Of a DNA stretch of 43,678 nt, positions 29,682-40,217 are shown in pieces. The position numbers and the translations under genes were made by a program. A model generated the notes under the pieces. The model searched no databases and was not told the origin of the DNA. It saw only the letters and a list, made by a program, of their open reading frames with translations. This DNA is from Rhodobacter sp. CACIA14H1. GTDB taxonomy: Bacteria; Pseudomonadota; Alphaproteobacteria; Rhodobacterales; Rhodobacteraceae. Position 1 is the stretch's first letter, and every line of letters begins with the position of its first letter. The stretch spans positions 1 to 43,678 of the forward strand of contig AYNO01000009.1 of NCBI GenBank assembly GCA_000500915.1, read 5' to 3'.

Positions 29682-30221
29682 TCACAACCGTCTGCCGTAG
29701 GCGTCCACCTCGCCCATCGCCGGCTTCTTCAGGTCGAAGGCGAAGCGGGAGGCGGCGACGACAAGGGGATAGCACAGGATGGACCAGAGAGTCTGCAGCA
29801 GCGCGAAGCCGAAGCCGGGCTGCGGCAGGAAGGCGACCGAAAAGGCCATGCGATAGGCGAGAAGCAGCGCGAACATCATGCTGGCGACCAGAAGCCATTC
29901 GGTCAGGAAGCCCAGTTCGCGCGTCAGGGTGGCGCGGGAGCGGATGAATTCGGTGGCCAGCACGACCAGCGCACACCACAGCCCCGGCGGGCGCAGGAGG
30001 ATCAGGTCTTCCAGCAGGACGACGATGGCGACGAGCAGGACGGGCAGGTAATCGGGCCGGCGGACCACCCATGCGAAGATCAGGCAGAGCAGGATGTCGG
30101 GACCGGGCCAGTCGCCCGCCGCCCCGCCGAGCGGCAGGAGGCGGAGGAACAGCAGGACAAGGGCCAGACCGACGAAGGCCAGACGGTAGAGCCAGACGGA
30201 GGAGCGGACGGCATCAACCAT
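29682..30221 (-). CDS. mreD: Rod shape-determining protein MreD
   Basis: Small inner-membrane protein of 179 residues with five to six hydrophobic segments and no other domain. Identification rests on its length, hydrophobicity, and fixed place between mreC and mrdA. It links MreC to the RodA/PBP2 pair. It overlaps mreC by 8 bp. Confidence 0.88.
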   Translation of the reverse strand: MVDAVRSSVWLYRLAFVGLALVLLFLRLLPLGGAAGDWPGPDILLCLIFAWVVRRPDYLPVLLVAIVVLLEDLILLRPPGLWCALVVLATEFIRSRATLTRELGFLTEWLLVASMMFALLLAYRMAFSVAFLPQPGFGFALLQTLWSILCYPLVVAASRFAFDLKKPAMGEVDAYGRRL

Positions 30222-31194
30222 CGCCTGCCTCCACCCCCGGCGAGCCTTCGGTCACGTCGCCGGTGCCGCCCTGTGCAGAGGGGTCGGGGGCCGGGGTTTC
30301 GCCGGTTTCCGCCTCGGGTTCCGGGAGGGTCGGCGGCGGGGCGATCAGGGCGCCGGGATCGGTGATGGGTTGCAGGTCGTGGCTGCGCAGGACGCGCAGG
30401 AATTCCAGTCTTTCGTAATCCGCGCCGAGGATGACGCGCAGGCGGCGGTCGGTGCCCATGGCCACCTGACCCACGGGCAGGCCTGCGGGCAGCATCCCGC
30501 CATCGCCGCTGGTCACGACGCTGTCGCCGGGGCGGACGAGGTCGGCATCTTCGAGGAATTCCAGCGGGGGGAGGGAGGAATTGTCGCCTGCCAGCAGGGC
30601 TTTCTGGCCGGAGGGCTGCACGGTGACGGGGACGCGGGAGTTCGAGTCGGTCAGCAGGATGACGCGCGAGGTGCGTTCGCCCACGCCCGAGATGCGGCCG
30701 ACAAGGCCGATGCCGTCCATCGCGGCCCAGCCGTCGCGGATGCCGTCGCGGGCGCCGACGTTCAGCAGGACGGACTGGCGGAACGGGCTGCCGCTGTCGG
30801 CCAGCACGACGCCGGTGACATGGGTGAGTTTCGGGTCCAGCCGCACGCGGTTGAGGTCGAGGAGGCGGGCGTTCTTCTGTTCCAGTTGCAGGGCGGCTTC
30901 GCGCCATGCCTTCATCTGCTGGAGTTCGCGGCGCAGTTCCTGGTTCTGTTCGTAGAGGCTGGCATAGCTCTGGAATTCGTCGATCATCGCGGCGGCCTTC
31001 GTCACGGGCAGGAGCGCCCAGTCGAAGGAGGGAACGACGCGGTCCACCAGTGCCGCGCGGAAGCGTTCGACGCGGGGGCTGTCGATGCGCCAGAGCAGGA
31101 AGATCGCCAGAAGGAGCAGGACCAGAAGCCCGACCAGAAGCCGCCGCAGGGGGCGGGCATAGTCTTCGGGTCCGGCGCTGCGTGTCTTGGCCAC
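30214..31194 (-). CDS. mreC: Rod shape-determining protein MreC
   Basis: Bitopic periplasmic scaffold of 326 residues: a short cytoplasmic tail, one membrane helix (about 19-38), a coiled coil (about 65-110), and the beta domain with GVVLADSGSPFRQSVLLNVG, GIGLVGRISGVGERTSRV and LLTDSNSRVPV. The last 50 residues are rich in Pro, Glu and Gly and are probably disordered. The start is GTG at 31194, with AAGGAC six bases upstream; no ATG is better placed. Confidence 0.92.
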   Translation of the reverse strand: MAKTRSAGPEDYARPLRRLLVGLLVLLLLAIFLLWRIDSPRVERFRAALVDRVVPSFDWALLPVTKAAAMIDEFQSYASLYEQNQELRRELQQMKAWREAALQLEQKNARLLDLNRVRLDPKLTHVTGVVLADSGSPFRQSVLLNVGARDGIRDGWAAMDGIGLVGRISGVGERTSRVILLTDSNSRVPVTVQPSGQKALLAGDNSSLPPLEFLEDADLVRPGDSVVTSGDGGMLPAGLPVGQVAMGTDRRLRVILGADYERLEFLRVLRSHDLQPITDPGALIAPPPTLPEPEAETGETPAPDPSAQGGTGDVTEGSPGVEAGDG

Positions 31195-31235
31195 GGCTGG
31201 TCCTTGCGTTCAGGGTCCCCGCGAAGGGCGGCGGA

Positions 31236-32339
<1,104 letters not shown>

Positions 32340-32343
32340 TCAC

Positions 32344-32372
32344 CATATAAAGACAGGCAAGGGACTGTGAAA
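32344..32372 (-). promoter_or_regulatory. Candidate promoter of the mre operon
   Basis: On the minus strand TTTCAC (32372-32367), 17 bp, then TATATG (32349-32344), 71 bp before the mreB ATG. It lies in the only AT-rich spot of the 385-bp upstream region. Confidence 0.45.
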
Positions 32373-32519
32373 GCCCGCAGGACAGCGCATCGCGCAATTC
32401 CGCGTGTGCGGGGCGGGGGTTGCGGTTTTCCTGCGCAACGGCGGGCGCGGGCGGCCGGTCGGGGGCGCGGCCTTGCGCTTTTCGGACATCGCGGGCGCTG
32501 TCCGGCGCAGACATCGCGA

Positions 32520-32605
32520 CGGAATTCGACGCAGATTCCGGGCCCCGAGGGCGGGGGTCCGTTTCCTGCGACAGGAAACGGCGCGAAATCTGCGTCAGAT
32601 TTCGC
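32520..32605. repeat. Cluster of three short hairpins between mreB and the PD-(D/E)XK-like gene
   Basis: First, CGGAAT / ATTCCG around GACGC (32520-32540). Second, GTTTCCTG-CGA-CAGGAAAC (32561-32579). Third, GCGAAATCTG-CGT-CAGATTTCGC (32583-32605). The last has the same loop and size as the hairpin at 2499-2521. Apart from these and the mre promoter, the 385-bp gap (32274-32658) holds nothing recognised. Confidence 0.6.
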
Positions 32606-32658
32606 TGTCCGTCCGGAGGTTGTGGGGATATGGGGGCGGCAGATCCAGAGGGGACAAG

Positions 32659-33402
32659 ATGCCGGATTTCCTTCCTGACGTTCCCGCCGATGCCGTCCTT
32701 GCCGCCCTGTCGCGTGCGCCGGGGGGCGAGCTGGCCTCGGGCAAGTTCGACAGTCCCGAGTCTTCGGCCGCGCTGGCCGCAAATGCCTTTGGCCGTTTCC
32801 TCGATGCCCCCGAGCTGCTGCCGCCCTTGCCGGGCGTGCCGATGGGGCGCCCCCTGCGGGTGGAGGTGGAGGCGGAGATGCGCTTTCCGTGGAAGGGCGG
32901 GCGGCATCCGTGGCTGGATGCGGCGGTGACCACGGCGACGACGCTGGTGGGGGTGGAGTCCAAGCGCTACGAACCCTTCCGTCCGGCAAAGGCGGCGGTG
33001 TTCTCGGAAGCCTATGACAGCCGCGACTGGGGGGCGGGGATGGCGGCCTTTGACGCGGTGCGGGGCGCGCTTTCGGGCGGGCGCCTTGCCTATCGGCATC
33101 TGGATGCGGTGCAGCTGGTGAAACATGCCTATGGCCTGCGGACGCAGGGCGAGAAGCGCGGGGTGGGGGCGGTGCTGGTCTATCTGCACGCCGCGCCCGC
33201 CACCTGGGCGAATGGCAAGCCGGTCGATCCGGCGGCGATCCGTGCGCATGGGGCCGAGGTGGCCGATTTCGCCGCGCGGGTGAAGGGGGCGGCCGTGACC
33301 TTCGTTCCGCTGCGCTGGGCGGCGCTGCTGGCGCAATGGGCGGCGGTGCCCGCACTGGCGGGGCATGCGGCGGCGATCACGGCGCGGTTCGGGGTGGTGT
33401 AG
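32659..33402 (+). CDS. Uncharacterised protein, possible PD-(D/E)XK nuclease fold (PGN_0703-like)
   Basis: A 247-residue soluble protein without signal or membrane segments. The best clue is LVGVESKRYEPFRPAKA, where an E-x-K after a hydrophobic strand resembles the core of PD-(D/E)XK enzymes of the PGN_0703 type, followed by FSEAYDSRDW. Full catalytic sets cannot be confirmed by eye. The ATG at 32659 follows GAGGGGAC and begins the conserved frame. It stands alone, convergent with leuA, with no methyltransferase or other defence gene beside it. Confidence 0.6.
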   Translation: MPDFLPDVPADAVLAALSRAPGGELASGKFDSPESSAALAANAFGRFLDAPELLPPLPGVPMGRPLRVEVEAEMRFPWKGGRHPWLDAAVTTATTLVGVESKRYEPFRPAKAAVFSEAYDSRDWGAGMAAFDAVRGALSGGRLAYRHLDAVQLVKHAYGLRTQGEKRGVGAVLVYLHAAPATWANGKPVDPAAIRAHGAEVADFAARVKGAAVTFVPLRWAALLAQWAAVPALAGHAAAITARFGVV

Positions 33403-33409
33403 CGGCGAC

Positions 33410-33438
33410 AGGCGCCCCCCGTCTGGCGGAGGGCGCCT
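33410..33438. terminator. Hairpin between convergent genes (33402 and 33463)
   Basis: AGGCGCCC (33410-33417) and GGGCGCCT (33431-33438) form an 8-bp stem with a 13-nt loop. It lies in the 60-bp gap between the stops of the upstream gene and leuA and could serve both. No U run. Confidence 0.5.
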
Positions 33439-33462
33439 TGCGATCTGCCCGGGAAGCTGCCG

Positions 33463-35037
33463 TCACTCGCCGTGATAGGTGACGGTCTTCACATCCTCGC
33501 CCGGTGCCGTCTTCTGGCGGCGGACGATCAGGCGGTTCAGCGCGTTCACATAGGCCTTGACCGAGGCCACGATGGTGTCGGTATCCGCCGACTGGCCGGT
33601 GACGATGCGCCCGTCCTCCTCCAGCCGGACCGACACTGTCGCCTGCGCGTCGGTGCCTTCGGTGACGGCGGCGACCTGATAGACCTGCAGCCGCGCCTTG
33701 TGGGGGAAGAGCATCTTCACGCAGTTGAAGGCCGCATCCACGGGGCCGTCGCCGGTGGCGTCGATGTGGTGGTCCTTGCCGTCGATGGACAGGACCATGT
33801 CGGCCTCTTGAGGGCCATCGGTGCCGCAGACCACGCGGAGCTTCTTCAGCACGAGGATGTCATGCGCGTCGTTGGTCTGTTCGTCGGCGACCAGCGCGAG
33901 GATGTCGTCGTCATAGACTTCCTTCTTGCGGTCGGCGAGCGCCTTGAAGCGGACGAAGACATCGTTGAGCTGGTTGTCGGCGAGGTCGTAGCCCAGTTCC
34001 TTGAGCTTTGCGCGGAGTGCGGCGCGGCCGGAATGTTTGCCCATCGCGATGTTCTTCTGCGTCAGGCCGATATCTTCGGGGCGCATGATTTCGAACGTCT
34101 CGACATTCTTCAGGACGCCGTCCTGATGGATGCCGGATTCGTGCAGGAAGGCGTTTTTCCCGACGATGGCCTTGTTGAACTGCACCGGGAAGCCCGAGAC
34201 GGTGGAGACCCGGCGCGAGAGGTGCATGATCTTGGTCGTGTCGATGCCCGTGCGGTAGGGCAGGATGTCGTTGCGGACCTTCATGGCCATGACGACTTCT
34301 TCCAGCGCGGTGTTGCCCGCCCGTTCGCCCAGCCCGTTGATGGTGCATTCGATCTGGCGTGCGCCCGCCTCGACCGCTGCCAGCGCGTTGGCGGTCGCCA
34401 TGCCGAGGTCGTTGTGGCAATGGGTGGCGAAGGTGATCGTGTCCGCGCCGGGGACGCGTTCCAGCAGCATGCGGATGATCTTGGCGGATTCGAAGGGGTA
34501 GGTGTAGCCCACGGTGTCGGGGATGTTGATCGTGGTGGCGCCCGCCTTGATGGCGATTTCCACGACGCGGCAGAGGTAGTCGGCTTCGGTCCGCGTGGCG
34601 TCCATCGGCGACCATTGCACGTTGTCGCAGAGGTTGCGGGCGTGGGTCACGGTGTCGTGGATGCGTTCGGCCATCTGGTCCATGTCCAGATTGGGGATCG
34701 CGCGGTGGAGCGGCGAGGTGCCGATGAAGGTGTGGATGCGCGGCGATTTCGCGTGGCGCACCGCTTCCCAGCAGCGGTCGATATCCTTGTAGTTCGCGCG
34801 GGCGAGGCCGCAGATCGTGGAATTCCTCGACCGTTTCGCGATTTCCGACACCGCCGCGAAGTCGCCTTCGGAGGCGATGGGGAAGCCCGCCTCGATGATG
34901 TCCACGCCCATTTCGTCGAGGAGGGAGGCGATTTCCAGCTTCTCCTCATGCGTCATGGTGGCGCCGGGGGATTGTTCGCCGTCGCGCAGCGTGGTGTCGA
35001 AGATCAATACGCGGGGTTGCGTGGATTTGTCGGTCAT
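33463..35037 (-). CDS. leuA: 2-isopropylmalate synthase
   Basis: First committed enzyme of leucine synthesis, joining acetyl-CoA and 2-oxoisovalerate; 524 residues. The catalytic TIM barrel has FDTTLRDGEQSPGATM and the metal-binding HCHNDLGMATANALA, then INGLGERAGNTALEEV. The C-terminal regulatory domain (about 390-520) binds leucine for feedback control. The start is preceded by AAGGACC. It is preceded on the same strand by a 28-codon leader peptide gene rich in Leu codons and by competing hairpins, so attenuation is expected in addition to feedback inhibition. No other leu gene adjoins it. Confidence 0.95.
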   Translation of the reverse strand: MTDKSTQPRVLIFDTTLRDGEQSPGATMTHEEKLEIASLLDEMGVDIIEAGFPIASEGDFAAVSEIAKRSRNSTICGLARANYKDIDRCWEAVRHAKSPRIHTFIGTSPLHRAIPNLDMDQMAERIHDTVTHARNLCDNVQWSPMDATRTEADYLCRVVEIAIKAGATTINIPDTVGYTYPFESAKIIRMLLERVPGADTITFATHCHNDLGMATANALAAVEAGARQIECTINGLGERAGNTALEEVVMAMKVRNDILPYRTGIDTTKIMHLSRRVSTVSGFPVQFNKAIVGKNAFLHESGIHQDGVLKNVETFEIMRPEDIGLTQKNIAMGKHSGRAALRAKLKELGYDLADNQLNDVFVRFKALADRKKEVYDDDILALVADEQTNDAHDILVLKKLRVVCGTDGPQEADMVLSIDGKDHHIDATGDGPVDAAFNCVKMLFPHKARLQVYQVAAVTEGTDAQATVSVRLEEDGRIVTGQSADTDTIVASVKAYVNALNRLIVRRQKTAPGEDVKTVTYHGE

Positions 35038-35060
35038 GGGTCTGGTCCTTGTGCCGTCTG

Positions 35061-35139
35061 CTGCTTTTCCTTCGGGCGCTGTGTCACCTCCGAGCGGTCG
35101 CGCCCGAGGGCACGCTCAGAGGCGGCTAAGGAGAAGCAG
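35061..35139 (-). promoter_or_regulatory. Leucine attenuator in the leuA leader
   Basis: In transcript order: the Leu codon run (35139-35128); a1 CCTCTGAGCG (35122-35113, holding the leader stop); b1 CGGGCGC (35106-35100); a2 CGCTCGGAGG (35096-35087); b2 GCGCCCG (35079-35073). The segments a1:a2 and b1:b2 pair in an interleaved way, so only one hairpin can form. A 12-nt segment (35072-35061) can also pair with the Leu codons, 11 of 12 bases. Ribosome stalling at Leu codons would favour a1:a2; finishing the peptide would cover a1 and favour b1:b2. b1:b2 lacks a U run, so it may act with Rho or on translation. Confidence 0.75.
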
Positions 35140-35202
35140 GCCAAGGGCGGCGGGGGCGCGGAATGCACCCGAGATCGAAGCGATATGCCGGTTCCCTGTC
35201 AT
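35116..35202 (-). CDS. leuL: leuA leader peptide (28 residues, Leu-rich end)
   Basis: ATG at 35202, TGA at 35118-35116. The peptide ends ALGLLLLSRL: the codons CTT GGC CTG CTT CTC CTT AGC CGC CTC give six Leu in the last ten residues. The stop lies inside the first arm of the attenuator, as in known leu leaders. A possible promoter is TTGCGC (35238-35233), 16 bp, TATCGT (35216-35211), which would leave a leader of very few bases before the ATG; no ribosome site is seen. Confidence 0.75.
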   Translation of the reverse strand: MTGNRHIASISGAFRAPAALGLLLLSRL

Positions 35203-35304
35203 GGGGCGCGACGATACGCAGGAATTGCGGCGGCGCAAGGTGGAAAAGGCGGGTTGAAGCGTGTTTTTCGCGGGTTAGGTGACGGGGCGGAAAGCGGGGG
35301 TGTG

Positions 35305-35967
35305 ATGCGGGCATTGGTGATCGGGGCATCGGGGGGGATCGGGTCGGCGGTCTGTGCCGCGCTTTCGGCGCGCGGGTGCGAGGTGGTGGGTCTGTCACGG
35401 TCGGCGGACGGGCTGGATGTGACGGACGAGGCGTCGGTGGCGGCGGTGCTGGGGCGTGTCGGCGGGGTGTTCGATCTGGTCTTCGTGGCGACCGGGGGGC
35501 TGGAGGTGGCGGGGTTCCGGCCGGAGAAGTCGGTGAAGGCTTTGGATGCGGGGGCGCTGGCGGCGCAGTTCGCGCTGAATGCGATCGGGCCGGCGCTGGT
35601 GCTGAAGCATGTGTGGCGGCTGATCCCGCGGGATCGCGTGGCGCGGGTGGCGGTGCTGTCGGCGCGGGTGGGGTCGATCGGGGACAACCGGCTGGGCGGG
35701 TGGCATGGCTATCGGGCGGCGAAGGCGGCGCTGAACCAGATCGTGCGGACCTGCGCGGTGGAGCTGGCGCGGACGCATCCGATGGCGGCTTTGGTCGCGC
35801 TGCATCCGGGGACGGTGGCGACGCCGCTGACGGCGGCCTATGCGGGCGGGCATCCGGTGGTGACGCCCGAGGCGGCGGCGGAGCGGTTGCTGGCGGTGAT
35901 CGAGGGGCTGGGGGCGGAGCAGTCGGGGTTGTTTTTCGACTGGAAGGGGGAGCGGGTGGAGTGGTGA
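35305..35967 (+). CDS. Short-chain dehydrogenase/reductase (C-factor-like)
   Basis: A 220-residue SDR-family oxidoreductase. NAD(P) motif ALVIGASGGIGSAVCAAL, VATGGLE at the NNAG position, the active-site Ser in VAVLSARVGSIG, and Tyr/Lys in WHGYRAAKAALNQIVRT. HPGTVATPLTAAY follows as in CsgA-type SDRs. Substrate unknown. The ATG at 35305 begins directly before the Rossmann fold; its ribosome site is weak. Divergent from the leuA leader (102 bp between starts) and followed by a palindromic region. Confidence 0.85.
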   Translation: MRALVIGASGGIGSAVCAALSARGCEVVGLSRSADGLDVTDEASVAAVLGRVGGVFDLVFVATGGLEVAGFRPEKSVKALDAGALAAQFALNAIGPALVLKHVWRLIPRDRVARVAVLSARVGSIGDNRLGGWHGYRAAKAALNQIVRTCAVELARTHPMAALVALHPGTVATPLTAAYAGGHPVVTPEAAAERLLAVIEGLGAEQSGLFFDWKGERVEW

Positions 35968-35990
35968 GGCTTCCCTTTGGTGCAACGGAA

Positions 35991-36085
35991 GGGGCGCGGC
36001 CGTCACGCAGGGGTGGCTGCACATATATGTGCGGCCGCCCCGGGGGGGCGGGACGGCCGCGCCCCGATGCTTTGGGCATCGGGGC
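35991..36085. repeat. Nested palindromes between the SDR and photolyase genes
   Basis: Outer arms GGGGCGCGGCCGTC (35991-36004) and GACGGCCGCGCCCC (36052-36065) are exact over 14 bp. Between them is the perfect dyad GCACATATATGTGC (36019-36032). A third hairpin, GCCCCGATGC with GCATCGGGGC (36061-36085), shares bases with the right outer arm, so the two structures compete. It may end the SDR mRNA and also hold an operator for the photolyase. Confidence 0.7.
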
Positions 36086-36130
36086 ATGTTCTGACGTTGC
36101 GCCTTTGCTCTGTCATCGGGGCGTTGCGCC

Positions 36131-37654
36131 ATGACGCGCCTGATCCTTGTCCTTGGGGACCAGTTGACCGCCGATGTCGCCGCCCTGCGGCAGGCCCGCC
36201 CTGACGATGTGGTCGTCATGGCCGAGGTGATGGCGGAAGGCACCTATGTCCCGCACCACCCGCAGAAGATCGCGCTGATCCTGTCGGCGATGCGTCATTT
36301 CGCGGATGACCTGCGGGGGGCGGGGTGGCGGGTCGCCTATTCGCGCCTCGACGATCCCGAGAACACGCAGTCCATCACGGGCGAGATCATCCGGCGGGCG
36401 GCGGAGCATGGGGCGCGGGAGGTGATCGCCACCGCCCCCGGCGACTGGCGGTTGCGGCAGGCGCTGGCGGATTGTCCTGTTCCCGTGACGCTGCTGCCCG
36501 ACGACCGGTTCCTCTGTTCGGAGGCGGAGTTTGCCGCATGGGCCGAGGAGCGCAAGCAGTTGCGGATGGAATTCTTCTACCGCGAGATGCGGCGGAAGAC
36601 CGGGTTGATGATGGAGGGCGGGCAGCCTGCGGGCGGGCAGTGGAACTATGACCACGATAACCGCAAGCCCGCCAGGCCCGACCTGTTCCGCCCGCGCCCG
36701 CCGCGTTTCGCGCCGGATGCGGTGACGGAGGAGGTGCTGGCACTGGTAAAGCTGCGGTTCGGCGGGCATTTCGGGGCGCTGCGCCCCTTCGGCTGGGGCG
36801 TGACGCGGGCTGATGCGCTGGCCGCGCTGGACCATTTCGTGGCCCATGCGCTGCCGACCTTCGGGGATGAGCAGGATGCGATGCTGCGGGATGACCCGAC
36901 GCTGAGCCATGCGCTGGTGTCGCCCTATCTGAACCTTGGCCTGCTGTCGCCGATGGAAATCTGCCAGAGGGTCGAGGCGGAATGGCAGGCGGGGCGTTGC
37001 CCGATCAATGCGGCGGAAGGGTTCATCCGGCAGATCATCGGCTGGCGGGAATTCGTGCGGGGCATCTGGGCGCTGGAGGGGCCGGATTATGCGCGGCGCA
37101 ATGTGCTGGGGCATTCCCGCGCGCTGCCGCCGGTCTATTGGGGCGCGGGGACGCGGATGGCCTGCATGGGCCATGCGGTGGGGCAGACGCGGGACATGGG
37201 CTATGCGCACCATATCCAGCGGCTGATGGTGACGGGGAATTTCGCGCTGCTGGCGGGGGTGGACCCTTGGGCCGTGCATGAATGGTATCTGTCGGTCTAT
37301 GTCGATGCCTTCGAATGGGTCGAGGCGCCGAATACCGTGGGGATGAGCCAGTTCGCCGATGGCGGCGTGGTGGGGTCGAAGCCCTATGTCAGTTCGGGCG
37401 CCTATATCGACCGGATGTCGGATTACTGCGGAGGCTGCCATTACAGGGTGAAGGACAAGACGGGCGAGCGGGCCTGTCCGTTCAACCTGCTGTACTGGCA
37501 TTTCCTGATGCGGCACCGCGAGCGGTTCGCGGGCAATCCGCGCATGGCGCAGATGTACCGGACTTGGGACCGGATGGAGGAAGGGCACCGTGCCCGCGTG
37601 TTGCGGGAGGCGGAGGCGTTCCTTGCGCGGATGGAGGCGGGGGAGGCGATCTAG
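36131..37654 (+). CDS. phrB: Iron-sulfur bacterial cryptochrome/(6-4) photolyase, PhrB type
   Basis: Light-driven DNA repair flavoprotein of 507 residues, the same length as PhrB of Agrobacterium. The N-terminal antenna domain starts LILVLGDQLTADVAAL; the FAD domain has GWGVTRADALAALDHFV, ALVSPYLNLGLLSP and GFIRQIIGWREFVRGIW. The [4Fe-4S] cysteines are visible in MACMGHAVG (likely first ligand), YCGGCHYRV and RACPFNLLYW, which together define the FeS-BCP group. It repairs (6-4) photoproducts in that family. Its stop overlaps that of the convergent ArsR gene on CTAG. Confidence 0.92.
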   Translation: MTRLILVLGDQLTADVAALRQARPDDVVVMAEVMAEGTYVPHHPQKIALILSAMRHFADDLRGAGWRVAYSRLDDPENTQSITGEIIRRAAEHGAREVIATAPGDWRLRQALADCPVPVTLLPDDRFLCSEAEFAAWAEERKQLRMEFFYREMRRKTGLMMEGGQPAGGQWNYDHDNRKPARPDLFRPRPPRFAPDAVTEEVLALVKLRFGGHFGALRPFGWGVTRADALAALDHFVAHALPTFGDEQDAMLRDDPTLSHALVSPYLNLGLLSPMEICQRVEAEWQAGRCPINAAEGFIRQIIGWREFVRGIWALEGPDYARRNVLGHSRALPPVYWGAGTRMACMGHAVGQTRDMGYAHHIQRLMVTGNFALLAGVDPWAVHEWYLSVYVDAFEWVEAPNTVGMSQFADGGVVGSKPYVSSGAYIDRMSDYCGGCHYRVKDKTGERACPFNLLYWHFLMRHRERFAGNPRMAQMYRTWDRMEEGHRARVLREAEAFLARMEAGEAI

Positions 37655-37995
37655 GCGTCCGGCGCGTCGAGTTCGGCTTCGAGGAAGCGCTCGAAGGCGT
37701 CGAGGTCCACCGGATCGAACTGGCCGAAGCCCTGCATCCAGACCGAGGCCGCCCGCAGCGCGTCGGGTTCCAGCTTGCACCATTTCACGCGGCCGCGCTT
37801 TTCCTGCGTGATCAACCCCGCCTCGGCCAGCACGGCGAGGTGTTTGGAGATGGCGGCCAGCGACATGGCGAAGGGTTCGGCCACGTCGGTGACGGCCATG
37901 TCATCTTCCAGCAGCATCGTCAGGATGGCGCGGCGCGTGGGGTCGGCCAGCGCGGCGAAGACGGTGTCGAGGGGATGGGACTGCGGGGCGGTCAT
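37651..37995 (-). CDS. ArsR-family winged-helix regulator
   Basis: A 114-residue regulator. LADPTRRAILTMLLEDDMAV and the recognition helix region MSLAAISKHLAVLAEAGLIT are diagnostic; RGRVKWCKLEPDALRAA forms the wing and following helix. The metal-binding Cys pattern of ArsR/SmtB is absent (only one Cys), so it more likely senses a non-metal signal, as in the subgroup often paired with AHSA1/SRPBCC genes; no such gene is next to it. The dyad TCAACC-N4-GGTTGA at 38027-38042, 31 bp before its ATG, is the likely autoregulatory site. Confidence 0.9.
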   Translation of the reverse strand: MTAPQSHPLDTVFAALADPTRRAILTMLLEDDMAVTDVAEPFAMSLAAISKHLAVLAEAGLITQEKRGRVKWCKLEPDALRAASVWMQGFGQFDPVDLDAFERFLEAELDAPDA

Positions 37996-38026
37996 GGGTG
38001 GTCTTTGCAGGGATCAGGCGGGATCG

Positions 38027-38042
38027 TCAACCGTTGGGTTGA
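38027..38042. promoter_or_regulatory. ArsR operator candidate TCAACC-GTTG-GGTTGA
   Basis: Perfect 6-bp arms around four bases, directly upstream of the arsR gene. The TCAACnnnnGTTGA type dyad is the usual form of sites for this ArsR subgroup. It also lies 41 bp upstream of the small ORF at 38084 on the other strand. Confidence 0.6.
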
Positions 38043-38083
38043 ATATGCCGACAGGGCCGGATCGGCCGGAAGGAGGGTGCGCG

Positions 38084-38230
38084 ATGGCGGATGCTGCATT
38101 TGAAAATACATATGAAACAACGGGTTACGGCGCGATGCCCGTGCCATTTCGCCGCTTGACTCATGCCGGACCCCTCCGTAGGTTCCGGCCGAACGTTCTG
38201 GGGGTGCCCGAACATGGCCATCGAACCTGA
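38084..38230 (+). CDS. Possible 48-residue small ORF overlapping the atpI start
   Basis: ATG at 38084 with a near-perfect AGGAGG site seven bases upstream (38071-38076); TGA at 38228-38230, 17 bp into atpI. It begins MADAAFENTYETTGYGAMPV and ends in a basic stretch. It overlaps the proposed atp promoter. The strong ribosome site and the ArsR dyad upstream argue for translation; the lack of any family likeness and the overlap with the promoter argue against. Undecided. Confidence 0.35.
   Translation: MADAAFENTYETTGYGAMPVPFRRLTHAGPLRRFRPNVLGVPEHGHRT
38156..38184 (+). promoter_or_regulatory. Promoter of the atp F0 operon
   Basis: TTGACT (38156-38161), exactly 17 bp, then TAGGTT (38179-38184), 29 bp before the atpI ATG. 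Good match to housekeeping promoters of alphaproteobacteria. Confidence 0.65.
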
Positions 38231-38546
38231 CCGCGAGCGTCTGAAGGCGCTTGAGGAGAAGATCGCGAAGGCCAGGGATGCGGCCGAAGGGCCGCGCAAG
38301 CGCCACCAGGAGGAGCACTATTCGCAGGCGCAGCTTGCGTGGCGGATGGTGATCGAGCTTGTGGCCGGTCTGGCGATCGGCTTCGGCATCGGATACGGGC
38401 TGGATACCCTGCTGGGGACGATGCCCATCTTTCTGGTGCTGTTCATACTGGCGGGCTTTGCGGCGGGGGTGAAAACCATGCTGCGGTCGGCGAACGAAGT
38501 GCAGGAACGGAAGGCGGCACAGGCCGCCAAGCAAGAGGAAGACTGA
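38214..38546 (+). CDS. atpI: ATP synthase protein I (AtpI)
   Basis: A 110-residue protein: a charged N-terminal helix ([20 protein letters not shown]), two membrane helices (about 43-65 and 69-90) and a charged tail. AtpI-family proteins help assemble the c-ring. The Met at 38214 starts the conserved part; upstream frame continuation is chance. First gene of the F0 operon, one base before atpB. Confidence 0.88.
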
Positions 38547-38547
38547 C

Positions 38548-39300
38548 GTGGCGGAAGAAGCGCACAGCGAAGGCGGTCTGGTGTTCCACCCGATGGACCA
38601 GTTCATCGTGAAGCCGCTGTTCGGCGACGGTCCGGTGGAATGGTACACGCCGACGAACGTGACGCTGTGGATGGCGCTTGCCGTGGTCTGCGCGATCGCG
38701 CTGTTCGTCATGGGCACGCGGGGCCGCGCCATCGTGCCGTCGCGGGTGCAGTCGGTGGCGGAACTGGCCTACGGGTTCATCTACAAGATGGTCGAGGATA
38801 TCTGCGGCCATGACGGGGTGAAGTACTTCCCGAAGATCTTCACGCTGTTCGTGTTCATCATCTTCACCAACTACCTCGGCCTGCTGCCGATGTCCTTTAC
38901 CCCCACGTCGCATATCGCGGTGACGGCGGTTCTGGGCTTTGGCGTGTTCTTCGCGGTGACGATCCTTGGTTTCGTCAAGCATGGCGCACATTTCCTCGGC
39001 CTGTTCTGGATGTCGGACGCCCCGCTGATCCTGCGCCCCATCATCGCTGTGATCGAGGTCATTTCCTATTTCGTCCGCCCAGTCAGCCATTCGATCCGTC
39101 TTGCGGGCAACATCATGGCCGGCCACGCCGTGATCAAGGTTTTCGCGGGATTTGCGGCCATCGCCGCCATCTCGCCGGTGTCGGTCCTTGCGATCGTCGC
39201 CATCTACGGGCTGGAGGTGCTGGTCGCCTTCATCCAGGCCTACGTCTTTACCATCCTGACCTGCGTCTATCTGAAGGATGCGCTGCATCCGGGCCACTGA
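38548..39300 (+). CDS. atpB: ATP synthase F0 subunit a
   Basis: Proton-channel subunit of 250 residues with five to six membrane helices. The essential Arg is in [20 protein letters not shown], and [15 protein letters not shown] is the usual C-terminus. The start is GTG at 38548, with an AAGAGGAAG site in the end of atpI. Confidence 0.95.
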
Positions 39301-39348
39301 CGCGCCGGTCATACCTAAACTCAAGCATTCCATCGTAAGGAGAAAATC

Positions 39349-39585
39349 ATGGAAGGCGATATCGCAAGCATGGGTCAGTTCATCGGTGCCGGCCTCGCCG
39401 CCATCGGTTCGGGCGCTGCCGCCATCGGCGTTGGCCACGTGGCCGGCAACTTCCTGTCGGGCGCCCTGCGCAACCCGTCGGCTGCCGGTTCGCAGACCGC
39501 CACGCTGTTCATCGGTCTGGCCTTCGCGGAAGCTCTGGGGATCTTCGCGTTCCTCGTCGCGCTTCTGCTGATGTTCGCCGTCTGA
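39349..39585 (+). CDS. atpE: ATP synthase F0 subunit c
   Basis: Rotor-ring proteolipid of 78 residues: two helices joined by the loop [10 protein letters not shown], with the proton-carrying Glu in [12 protein letters not shown] perfect AAGGAG precedes it, in line with the need for many copies. The following spacer is strongly structured (39591-39643). Confidence 0.96.
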
Positions 39586-39590
39586 TCCCG

Positions 39591-39643
39591 CTTCGAATCC
39601 TTACGTAAGGGGGGCACGCCGGGCGACCGGCGGCCCTTCGAAG
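39591..39643 (+). repeat. Structured atpE-atpF' spacer
   Basis: CTTCGAA (39591-39597) pairs with TTCGAAG (39637-39643) and encloses the perfect dyad CCTTACGTAAGG (39599-39610) and a GC hairpin. Such a structure after atpE may protect the atpE part of the mRNA from 3' decay and so raise its yield over the b subunits. Confidence 0.55.
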
Positions 39644-39668
39644 TTCAAAGGGTCCGACGGAGGACAAG

Positions 39669-40217
39669 ATGGCTACTGAATCTACCGCCGCCGACATTGC
39701 CCAGTGTGTCAACGAGCATGGCAGCGCCATCGGCATGCCGCAGCTCTGCGCCGACTGGATGCCGAACCAGATCTTCTGGCTGATCGTCGCGCTGGCCGTG
39801 ATCTATTTCGTGCTGTCGCGCATCGCGCTTCCGCGCATCGGTGGCGTGCTTGCCGAACGCAAGGGCACGATCACCAACGACCTGACCGCGGCTGAAGAGC
39901 TGAAGGCCAAGGCCGTCGAGGCCGAGAAGGCCTATCAGGACGCGCTGGCGCGGGCCCGTGCCGAAGCCGCGAAGATCGTGGCCGAAGCGCGTGCGGACAT
40001 CCAGAAGGATCTGGATGCGGCCACCGCCAAGGCGGATGCCGAAATCGCGGCCAAGGCTGCGGAATCCGAGAAGCGCATCGGGGAAATCCGTGCGGGTGCC
40101 TTGGAAGCCGTGACCGAGGTGGCGAAGGACACGGCCAAGGAACTGGTGGCGGCGCTGGGCGGCAAGGCCGACGCACGCAGCGTGACCGCGGCTGTCACTG
40201 CGCGACTGAAAGGGTGA
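39669..40217 (+). CDS. atpF': ATP synthase F0 subunit b'
   Basis: Peripheral-stalk subunit of 182 residues. A periplasmic tail with [15 protein letters not shown] precedes one membrane helix (about 35-55, [20 protein letters not shown]), then a long charged helix (about 60-160) typical of b-type subunits. The longer N-terminal part and its place before atpF mark it as b', found in photosynthetic bacteria and alphaproteobacteria. GGAGG precedes the ATG; four bases separate it from atpF. Confidence 0.92.

Follow-up and report, generated by a model that had tools for sequence, protein, structure and literature searches.

The region upstream of leuA in Rhodobacter sp. CACIA14H1 is best read as a leucine-responsive, ribosome-mediated translational attenuator, an interpretation of sequence comparisons to which we assign a probability of roughly 0.8. 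We are more confident still that a ribosome reads the leader for leucine, and we consider control at translation rather than transcription about as probable as the reading as a whole; that the leader is a real conserved element is nearly certain. What comparison supports is the leader ORF, its Leu codons together with their unusual codon choice, four helices (A to D), the lack of a U tract and, in operons where a cupin gene comes next, pairing of the Leu codons (helix C) with the Shine-Dalgarno (SD) sequence of that gene. From these features we infer the leucine response, the transcription start, the order of folding and the roles of helices B and D.

Coordinates refer to the window, i.e., the whole stretch of 43,678 nt that was analyzed, and the features of the leader region lie on its minus strand. 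The leuA gene (33463..35037), coding for a 2-isopropylmalate synthase of 524 aa with Pfam domains HMGL-like, HCS_D2, and LeuA_dimer, is preceded by an SD sequence, AAGGA, read at 35046..35050, and starts 78 nt downstream of the stop codon of the leader ORF. The latter (35116..35202) comprises 28 codons (MTGNRHIASISGAFRAPAALGLLLLSRL, stop TGA), ending in CTT GGC CTG CTT CTC CTT AGC CGC CTC TGA. Its stop codon (35118-35116) falls within the 5′ arm of stem A, CCTCTGAGCG (35113..35122), which pairs over 10 bp with CGCTCGGAGG (35087..35096), i.e., 35122-35113 with 35096-35087. The loop of stem A in turn contains the 5′ arm of stem B, TCGGGCGC (35100..35107), whose 3′ arm, GCGCCCGA (35072..35079), lies downstream, yielding an 8-bp interleaved pair. 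The codons CTG CTT CTC CTT, CTGCTTCTCCTT (35128..35139), constitute the 5′ arm of stem C and pair in 11 of 12 positions with the 3′ arm AAGGAAAAGCAG (35061..35072). Stem D, weak in the window and strong in relatives, joins leader codons 2 and 3 (35194..35198) to CCTTG (35142..35146) immediately 5′ of the Leu run. Stems A and D were assigned from covariation (stem A in 44 sequences), stem B from the pairing of loop and downstream strings, and the Leu-codon arm of stem C from kept leucine plus covariation.

The original prediction had described the 28-codon ORF with its stop codon in a hairpin arm, the interleaved arms and an 11/12-base match to the Leu codons. All of these are present at this place on the minus strand, the last as 35139-35128 with 35072-35061, and a match to the Leu codons is kept family-wide. 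The count of four different Leu codons has to be lowered to three. A near-absent 5′ leader had also been proposed; indeed, a -10-like box, TATCGT (35211..35216), of a kind common in relatives, lies 8 nt 5′ of the leader ATG, an arrangement kept in the family, and no SD sequence precedes this ATG in the window. Upstream of a 16-nt spacer, TTGCGC (35233..35238) was picked by eye as a possible -35 element, at about the position of the family consensus CTTTCCTTT.

An alignment of leuA upstream regions across Rhodobacteraceae, proposed with the original prediction as its check, shows that the Leu codons are conserved and that the stems covary. The leader is present in 109 of 111 leuA upstream sequences, a set of 110 loci plus the window again (as L001 and WIN). 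One of the two misses, L061, has a wrongly called leuA start, and the covariance model R1 does find the element there; the other, L027, is an apparently chimeric contig. In the latter, a public MAG contig, unrelated sequence replaces the first leuA codons (positions 1200-1530). R1 describes the core of the element (72 positions) and derives from an alignment, A1, of 44 sequences picked for equal loop length and mutual dissimilarity. Built from members of the set as it is, R1 matches 80/81 loci, missing L027, and 86/89 further loci, missing L174, L203, and L205, which are operons with another gene first; in longer stretches of these three genomes the element is found farther upstream (L243, L229, and L230, respectively).

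Genome-wide searches gave the same picture. R1 matches all 101 genomes searched of the order, the own genome plus 100 others (E 3.6e-18 to 2.7e-5), all of them labelled as the family of the window, with the order name Rhodobacterales resting on record titles. In every one of the 101, the best match shares contig and strand with leuA and lies upstream of it, at a distance of 26-177 nt in 88 genomes and 393-431 nt in 13, and three genomes have a second, weak match (E 0.005 to 0.06). In the own genome, a single match is significant (E 5e-18), the next being at E 0.6. Counts for stem B, stem C, the promoter, codons, the frameshift and the -10 shuffles were all taken from one core set (n = 146), obtained from 169 family entries after removal of exact duplicates and 13 named entries, namely eight loci with a cupin gene first, L164 and L211 (wrong ORF), L050 and L081 (wrong leuA start), and WIN (identical to L001).

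Rfam 15 gave no match at the leader up to E 5 (window 30000-40000), and at gathering score the upstream sequences yielded just a tRNA, in L215, L216, L217, L115, L128, and L113. Elsewhere in the window, at 36025-36089, two adjoining GC-rich hairpins between two ORFs gave weak Rfam matches (6C and Scr3202, E 3-4); this is probably a terminator region.

For stem A, 98.0% of 440 cells are paired in the 44 aligned sequences, and the covariation score of 0.137 compares with 0.067 ± 0.008 after shuffling (reached in 0/500) and at most 0.047 for slid arms; three of its pairs change on both sides, as is the case in 16/500 shuffles. For stem B, the downstream string was compared with the loop: of 51 sequences with GGGCGC in the loop, 49 have GCGCCC downstream, and of 59 with CGGCGCG, 39 have CGCGCC and 27 have GCGCCG. 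Loops with GGGTGC have GCACCC in 4/13 and GCGCCC in 8/13, and in the seven loops of the CGGGCC type, a search for the strings GGCCCG and GCGCCC returned 0 and 1 matches, respectively. The mean helix score of stem B is 20.1, compared to 17.7 ± 0.23 with swapped and 13.7 with shuffled partners. Stem D was scored in 74 of the 146 sequences, those whose leaders start with Met-Thr and have 24-36 letters, where it reached 16.3 versus 12.8 ± 0.45 for swapped partners. Here, CACGGG is matched by CCCGTG in 25/27 cases and never by CCCTTG, while CAAGGG is matched by CCCTTG in 4/5 and never by CCCGTG.

Stems A and B had been thought mutually exclusive, which their geometry does not require. The outer 10 bp of stem A share no base with stem B, competition being confined to an inner TGCC/GGCG extension, and the connecting loops (L1 mostly 4-9, L2 mostly 1-3, L3 mostly 5-11 nt, 6 being commonest) are in the H-type range, so that the two stems could coexist as an H-type pseudoknot. 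Their energies in the window are nearly equal (-16.7 and -16.2 kcal/mol for A and B, respectively), and simple folding cannot score a pseudoknot; stem C adds about -11 kcal/mol to stem A plus inner pairs. Since stem C can form together with either A or B, the model does not explain why stem B should be needed. The roles of stems B and D are speculative. Note that GGAGGTGA (35084-35091, minus strand), into which the 3′ arm of stem A continues, resembles a very strong SD sequence, the complement of the 16S end. We rejected it as a hidden start, as no start codon follows closely and visual comparison shows no conservation beyond the family.

In stem C, the Leu codons themselves are one strand. 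Between +40 and leuA, 56 of the 146 sequences contain a 7-nt complement of their own Leu arm, versus 2.8 expected from species with a different arm. The match follows the type of arm: TCCTTAGC occurs with a GCTAAGGA-type partner in 19/42 sequences and with a GCTAAGAA-type partner in none, TTCTTAGC with the GCTAAGAA type in 21/42 and with the GCTAAGGA type in 1, and TTCTTACG with CGTAAGAA in 6/9. The exact 7-nt match in fixed register is absent from 90/146 sequences, including the window, which uses another register, and none of the 16 sequences with arms TCCTAATC, TCCTTACC, TGCTAAGC, or TTCTTACC match in register. Compared with the nearest relative of another type, stem C scores higher in 72 sequences, lower in 38 and equal in 36 (p 1.2e-5). 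When the register is not fixed, 99 sequences give a helix score of 16.8, compared to 14.7 ± 0.31 for swapped and 13.9 for shuffled sequences. On the leuA tree, position 2 of stem C changes as a pair four times, a parsimony count made on the 38 of 99 leaves that are in register and thus conditional on pairing. In family members with leuA first, the 3′ arm lies at the SD sequence or, often, just upstream; in the window, the conserved arm ends 23 nt 5′ of the leuA ATG. In the minimum-energy fold of the window, stem C is longer, with CCUUG, next to the Leu run, paired to the CAAGG that covers the leuA SD sequence; these CCUUG bases are those of the 3′ arm of stem D.

The strongest argument that the target of this pairing is translation initiation of the next gene comes from lineages of the family in which a cupin gene of 117-118 codons (Cupin_2 in L226) intervenes between leader and leuA. 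In these operons the element precedes the cupin gene, and in 13 of 16 the complement of the Leu codons lies on the cupin SD sequence, contains an SD-like core, and ends 4-12 nt before the cupin ATG; examples are TCCTAATC with GATTAGGA and TCCTAGT with ACTAGGA. The mean helix score of stem C is 17.7 here, compared to 10.6 ± 0.8 after shuffling, where none of 200 rounds exceeded 12.85. The 16 loci are not independent, representing nine genera by label, and the 13 represent six. The failures are L237, L238, and L240, and in L240 the script had taken an earlier ATG. Note that the underlying 20 stretches were picked nonrandomly, for an element that was distant from leuA or had seemed absent or odd; they comprise the 16 with cupin, L242 with the same protein missed by the motif, two with leuA first, and one unresolved. 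The small Cupin_2-like gene, seen in L225-L234, L236-L238, and L240-L243, appears to have been captured into the leader operon. Such cupin operons amount to a natural transplant, linking the pairing to the next gene, whatever that gene is.

The pairing with the cupin SD sequence would be superfluous if the leader and its hairpins stopped RNA polymerase before leuA, by a terminator lacking a U tract or by Rho. We regard such transcription attenuation as improbable, although the transcription attenuator leuL of Escherichia coli, for which Rfam has a leader family, is also a Leu-rich leader ORF before leuA. There, a GC-rich hairpin and then T7 stand between leader and leuA, whereas no such combination is present here: the longest T run between leader stop and leuA is at most 4 in 91/91 loci, with 11 loci of unusual spacing excluded, T accounts for just 8.8% of bases from +50 to leuA, and the same measure returns a run of 7 in the one E. 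coli leuL-leuA gap used as a control. Among 28 members of the class outside the family, two have a longest T run of 5 and one has a run of 6. Scans of the window found no terminator-like site and missed the E. coli leu terminator as well, so that only the T-run count carries weight; on the absent T tract, we rejected a transcription terminator before leuA.

Transcription attenuation has been reported for Rhodobacterales cysS and Caulobacter ilvIH leaders. The former, uORFC-8-2, is a Cys leader before cysS that is proposed to be read by a ribosome (PMC8632094). It resembles the leuA leader in being an amino-acid leader in the same order and differs by the U run at the end of its consensus, a mark of transcription termination. 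In the genome from which L218 was taken, a short Cys-codon leader, MTRTGILCFRCITR (L218 1316-1360), which resembles uORFC-8-2, lies upstream of cysS; we dropped it as a U-run control because its T run is ambiguous. Beside cysS in the same genome lies a leuA-like gene of 31% identity (G000 C12 37557-38780), possibly a citramalate or homocitrate synthase.

Leader-peptide attenuation as originally predicted is thus supported as a type, given the Leu codons and the covariation. The lack of a U run, also predicted, is borne out by the window, which has no T run, and by the family; together with the Leu-codon match and the near-absent 5′ leader, which are likewise kept, it points to translational control and not to classical transcription termination.

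Choice of codons speaks to what is being read. Leucine occupies codons -7, -6, -5, and -4 relative to the leader stop in 129, 143, 138, and 146 of the 146 sequences, and positions -7 and -6, which lie outside the fixed 8-nt arm of stem C, use all four CTN codons. Moreover, CTT and CTA make up 50% and 10% of Leu codons in the leader runs (n = 592), compared to 5.7% and 0.3% in the leuA genes (n = 3,615). This usage, and the leucine kept outside the arm, suggest selection on the amino acid or its tRNA and not on the RNA alone. These data argue against the RNA serving to bind a protein or small molecule, with the Leu codons mattering only as RNA. The strong conservation of the RNA core would suit such a role, as would the codon mutants reported in Streptomyces (PMC1262725); no Rfam family matches, and we judge a binding site quite unlikely, more so than transcription attenuation. 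Less probable again is that the leader peptide functions in trans as a small protein, the role described for peTrpL of Sinorhizobium meliloti: the ORF is conserved, but its length and N terminus vary widely and mainly the Leu run and stem bases are kept. Equally remote is a +1 frameshift at CUU AGC that would take leader ribosomes to the leuA start and couple translation, for while the +1 frame of the window extends without interruption to an ATGA overlap with leuA (ORF 35168-35034), this frame is not kept, the stop-to-ATG spacing leaving remainders of 0, 1, and 2 in 56, 32, and 58 of 146 sequences and the +1 frame reaching the leuA start in 90/146 versus 81.0 in shuffles, so that we discarded it as a conserved mechanism.

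The leader ORF itself looks leaderless. Of the 146 sequences, 126 carry a -10-like box at a distance of 6-10 nt upstream of a leader ATG, most commonly TATAGT (68 sequences), compared to 12.9/146 expected and at most 20 in shuffled upstream DNA. Just 2/146 leader ATGs have an SD core in front of them, compared to 77/146 leuA genes, or 138 with AAAG/AGAG counted. Both lines suggest that transcription starts at or beside the AUG. The -35-like stretch CTTTCCTTT of the leader promoter, which accompanies TATAGT, is strongly conserved and unusual, and it is unlike TTGACA.

The predicted fold of the window leader is of unexceptional energy (z -1.25; 22/200 shuffles as good), and the evidence for the element is hence comparative, not energetic. 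In a fold model, a ribosome on the Leu codons was represented by blocking everything up to them, for 132 of the 146 sequences. The predicted openness of positions -30 to -9 relative to leuA then rises from 0.42 to 0.63 (up in 115/132 sequences, down in 3), and from 0.39 to 0.67 in the window. This opening amounts to 0.206, versus 0.112 in chimeras that carry the pre-leuA region of other species (p 1e-8). By comparison, the SD sequence and start (-16 to +3) change from 0.535 to 0.646 (74/132 up, 20 down), which is not above the chimeras (p 0.12), and in the window from 0.59 to 0.61. As this segment opens little, stem C in family members with leuA first would probably obstruct the site upstream where the 30S subunit lands and not the SD sequence. 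A ribosome placed at the stop codon leaves the openness of -30 to -9 at 0.60, nearly the value for the Leu codons, implying that the OFF state needs a ribosome-free leader.

For the leuA leader as a translational attenuator, we envisage the following course of events. Transcription would begin at or beside the AUG of the SD-less leader ORF. With ample charged Leu-tRNA, the ribosome would cross the Leu run, end at the UGA and leave; on the ribosome-free leader, stem A could then close and the Leu codons pair, as stem C, on or just upstream of the next SD sequence, resulting in poor translation. When leucine is scarce, the ribosome would wait on the Leu codons and cover one strand of stem C and, late in the run, one of stem A, leaving helix B free to form and the leuA landing site accessible. 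The Leu codons would thereby act as sensor and anti-SD strand at once. Helix D, which pairs the first codons of the leader with the bases before the Leu run, may re-close the start of the leader after each passage.

Leaders of this kind extend beyond the family. Across 133 genomes of the class, leuA was found at E <= 1e-100 in 65, 63 of them outside the family, and 40 of these 63 were analyzed for their upstream regions. A Leu-codon leader with a stop hairpin is present in 29/40, compared to a mean of 0.04/40 in the same test on shuffled sequences and 1/40 on the opposite strand; L132 and L139 fall slightly below the thresholds. The commonest stop hairpin in the class is CCCCTGA / TCAGGGG. A search of the 133 genomes with R1, a model made for the family, gave 22 places at E <= 0.1, 18 of which adjoin leuA (the window and G210 included) and four of which do not (G411 C17, G388 C5, G422 C14, and G454 C621). 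For stem C, 28 class sequences give a helix score of 18.75, compared to 15.57 ± 0.54 for swapped partners (reached in 0/200), and in some members, e.g., L126, L131, L133, and L146, the arm is on the SD sequence. Many class members have Leu-Arg-Leu with a CGA codon in place of Leu-Leu-Leu. This Leu-Arg(CGA)-Leu often stands before xxP*, as in L115, L119, L121, L122, L128, L130, L131, L137, and L138.

Several known systems share part of this logic. In translational attenuators of the ermC type, stalling of a ribosome within a leader ORF makes the SD sequence of the next gene available, the inducer being an antibiotic. Here, the inducer would instead be uncharged Leu-tRNA, with the anti-SD strand made up of the very codons on which the ribosome would stall. 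The nearest relative in design is the LEU element of Actinobacteria (Seliverstov 2005, PMC1262725), which is described as a Leu leader before leuA whose Leu codons pair with the SD sequence, with two inner helices forming either a pseudoknot or an alternative hairpin and other attenuator elements missing. Its authors preferred a binding protein, citing Streptomyces leuA leader mutants whose effect is called inconsistent with classical attenuation in one place and said to have no regulatory influence in another. The alphaproteobacterial element, from another phylum, has in common with it the Leu-run leader before leuA and a stem between Leu codons and SD sequence, the latter on the SD itself in the 13 cupin-first operons. 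Among its features are also a stop codon within a conserved 10-bp stem, a leaderless-looking leader, helix D and, in some lineages, stem C on the cupin SD. At the leader of one actinobacterial leuA (Tsukamurella, L215), R1 gave no match, its sole match, at E 0.94, lying elsewhere; by eye, this sequence has a short Leu leader whose stop codon falls within a hairpin. We view the element as an alphaproteobacterial counterpart of the LEU element and not as a proven member.

In the literature, within a search that had subscription papers and supplements outside its scope, we found no alphaproteobacterial leuA leader. Such leaders may be listed in Vitreschak 2004 and Lopatovskaya 2010, and also in the supplements of PMC6429828, a paper that describes 11 uORFs of an alphaproteobacterium.

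More tentatively, and with the balance of probability somewhat against it, the element could be a class-wide and probably ancestral device in which the sensing codons are the anti-SD strand, a pseudoknot at the stop codon brakes the stalled ribosome from ahead, a 5′-terminal helix shuts the leaderless start after every ribosome, and one passage of a ribosome makes one decision. If this were true, a second phylum would have the layout of the LEU element, which would speak for both being switches read by a ribosome, whether they share an ancestor or arose convergently. The attenuator reading, if right, would provide a clean natural test of whether an SD-paired Leu run works by ribosome stalling, a question open for the LEU element, and an element this compact could serve as a leucine-biosensor module. 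For the bacteria themselves, the attenuator reading would mean that leuA is under leucine control at the level of translation in a large part of the Alphaproteobacteria.
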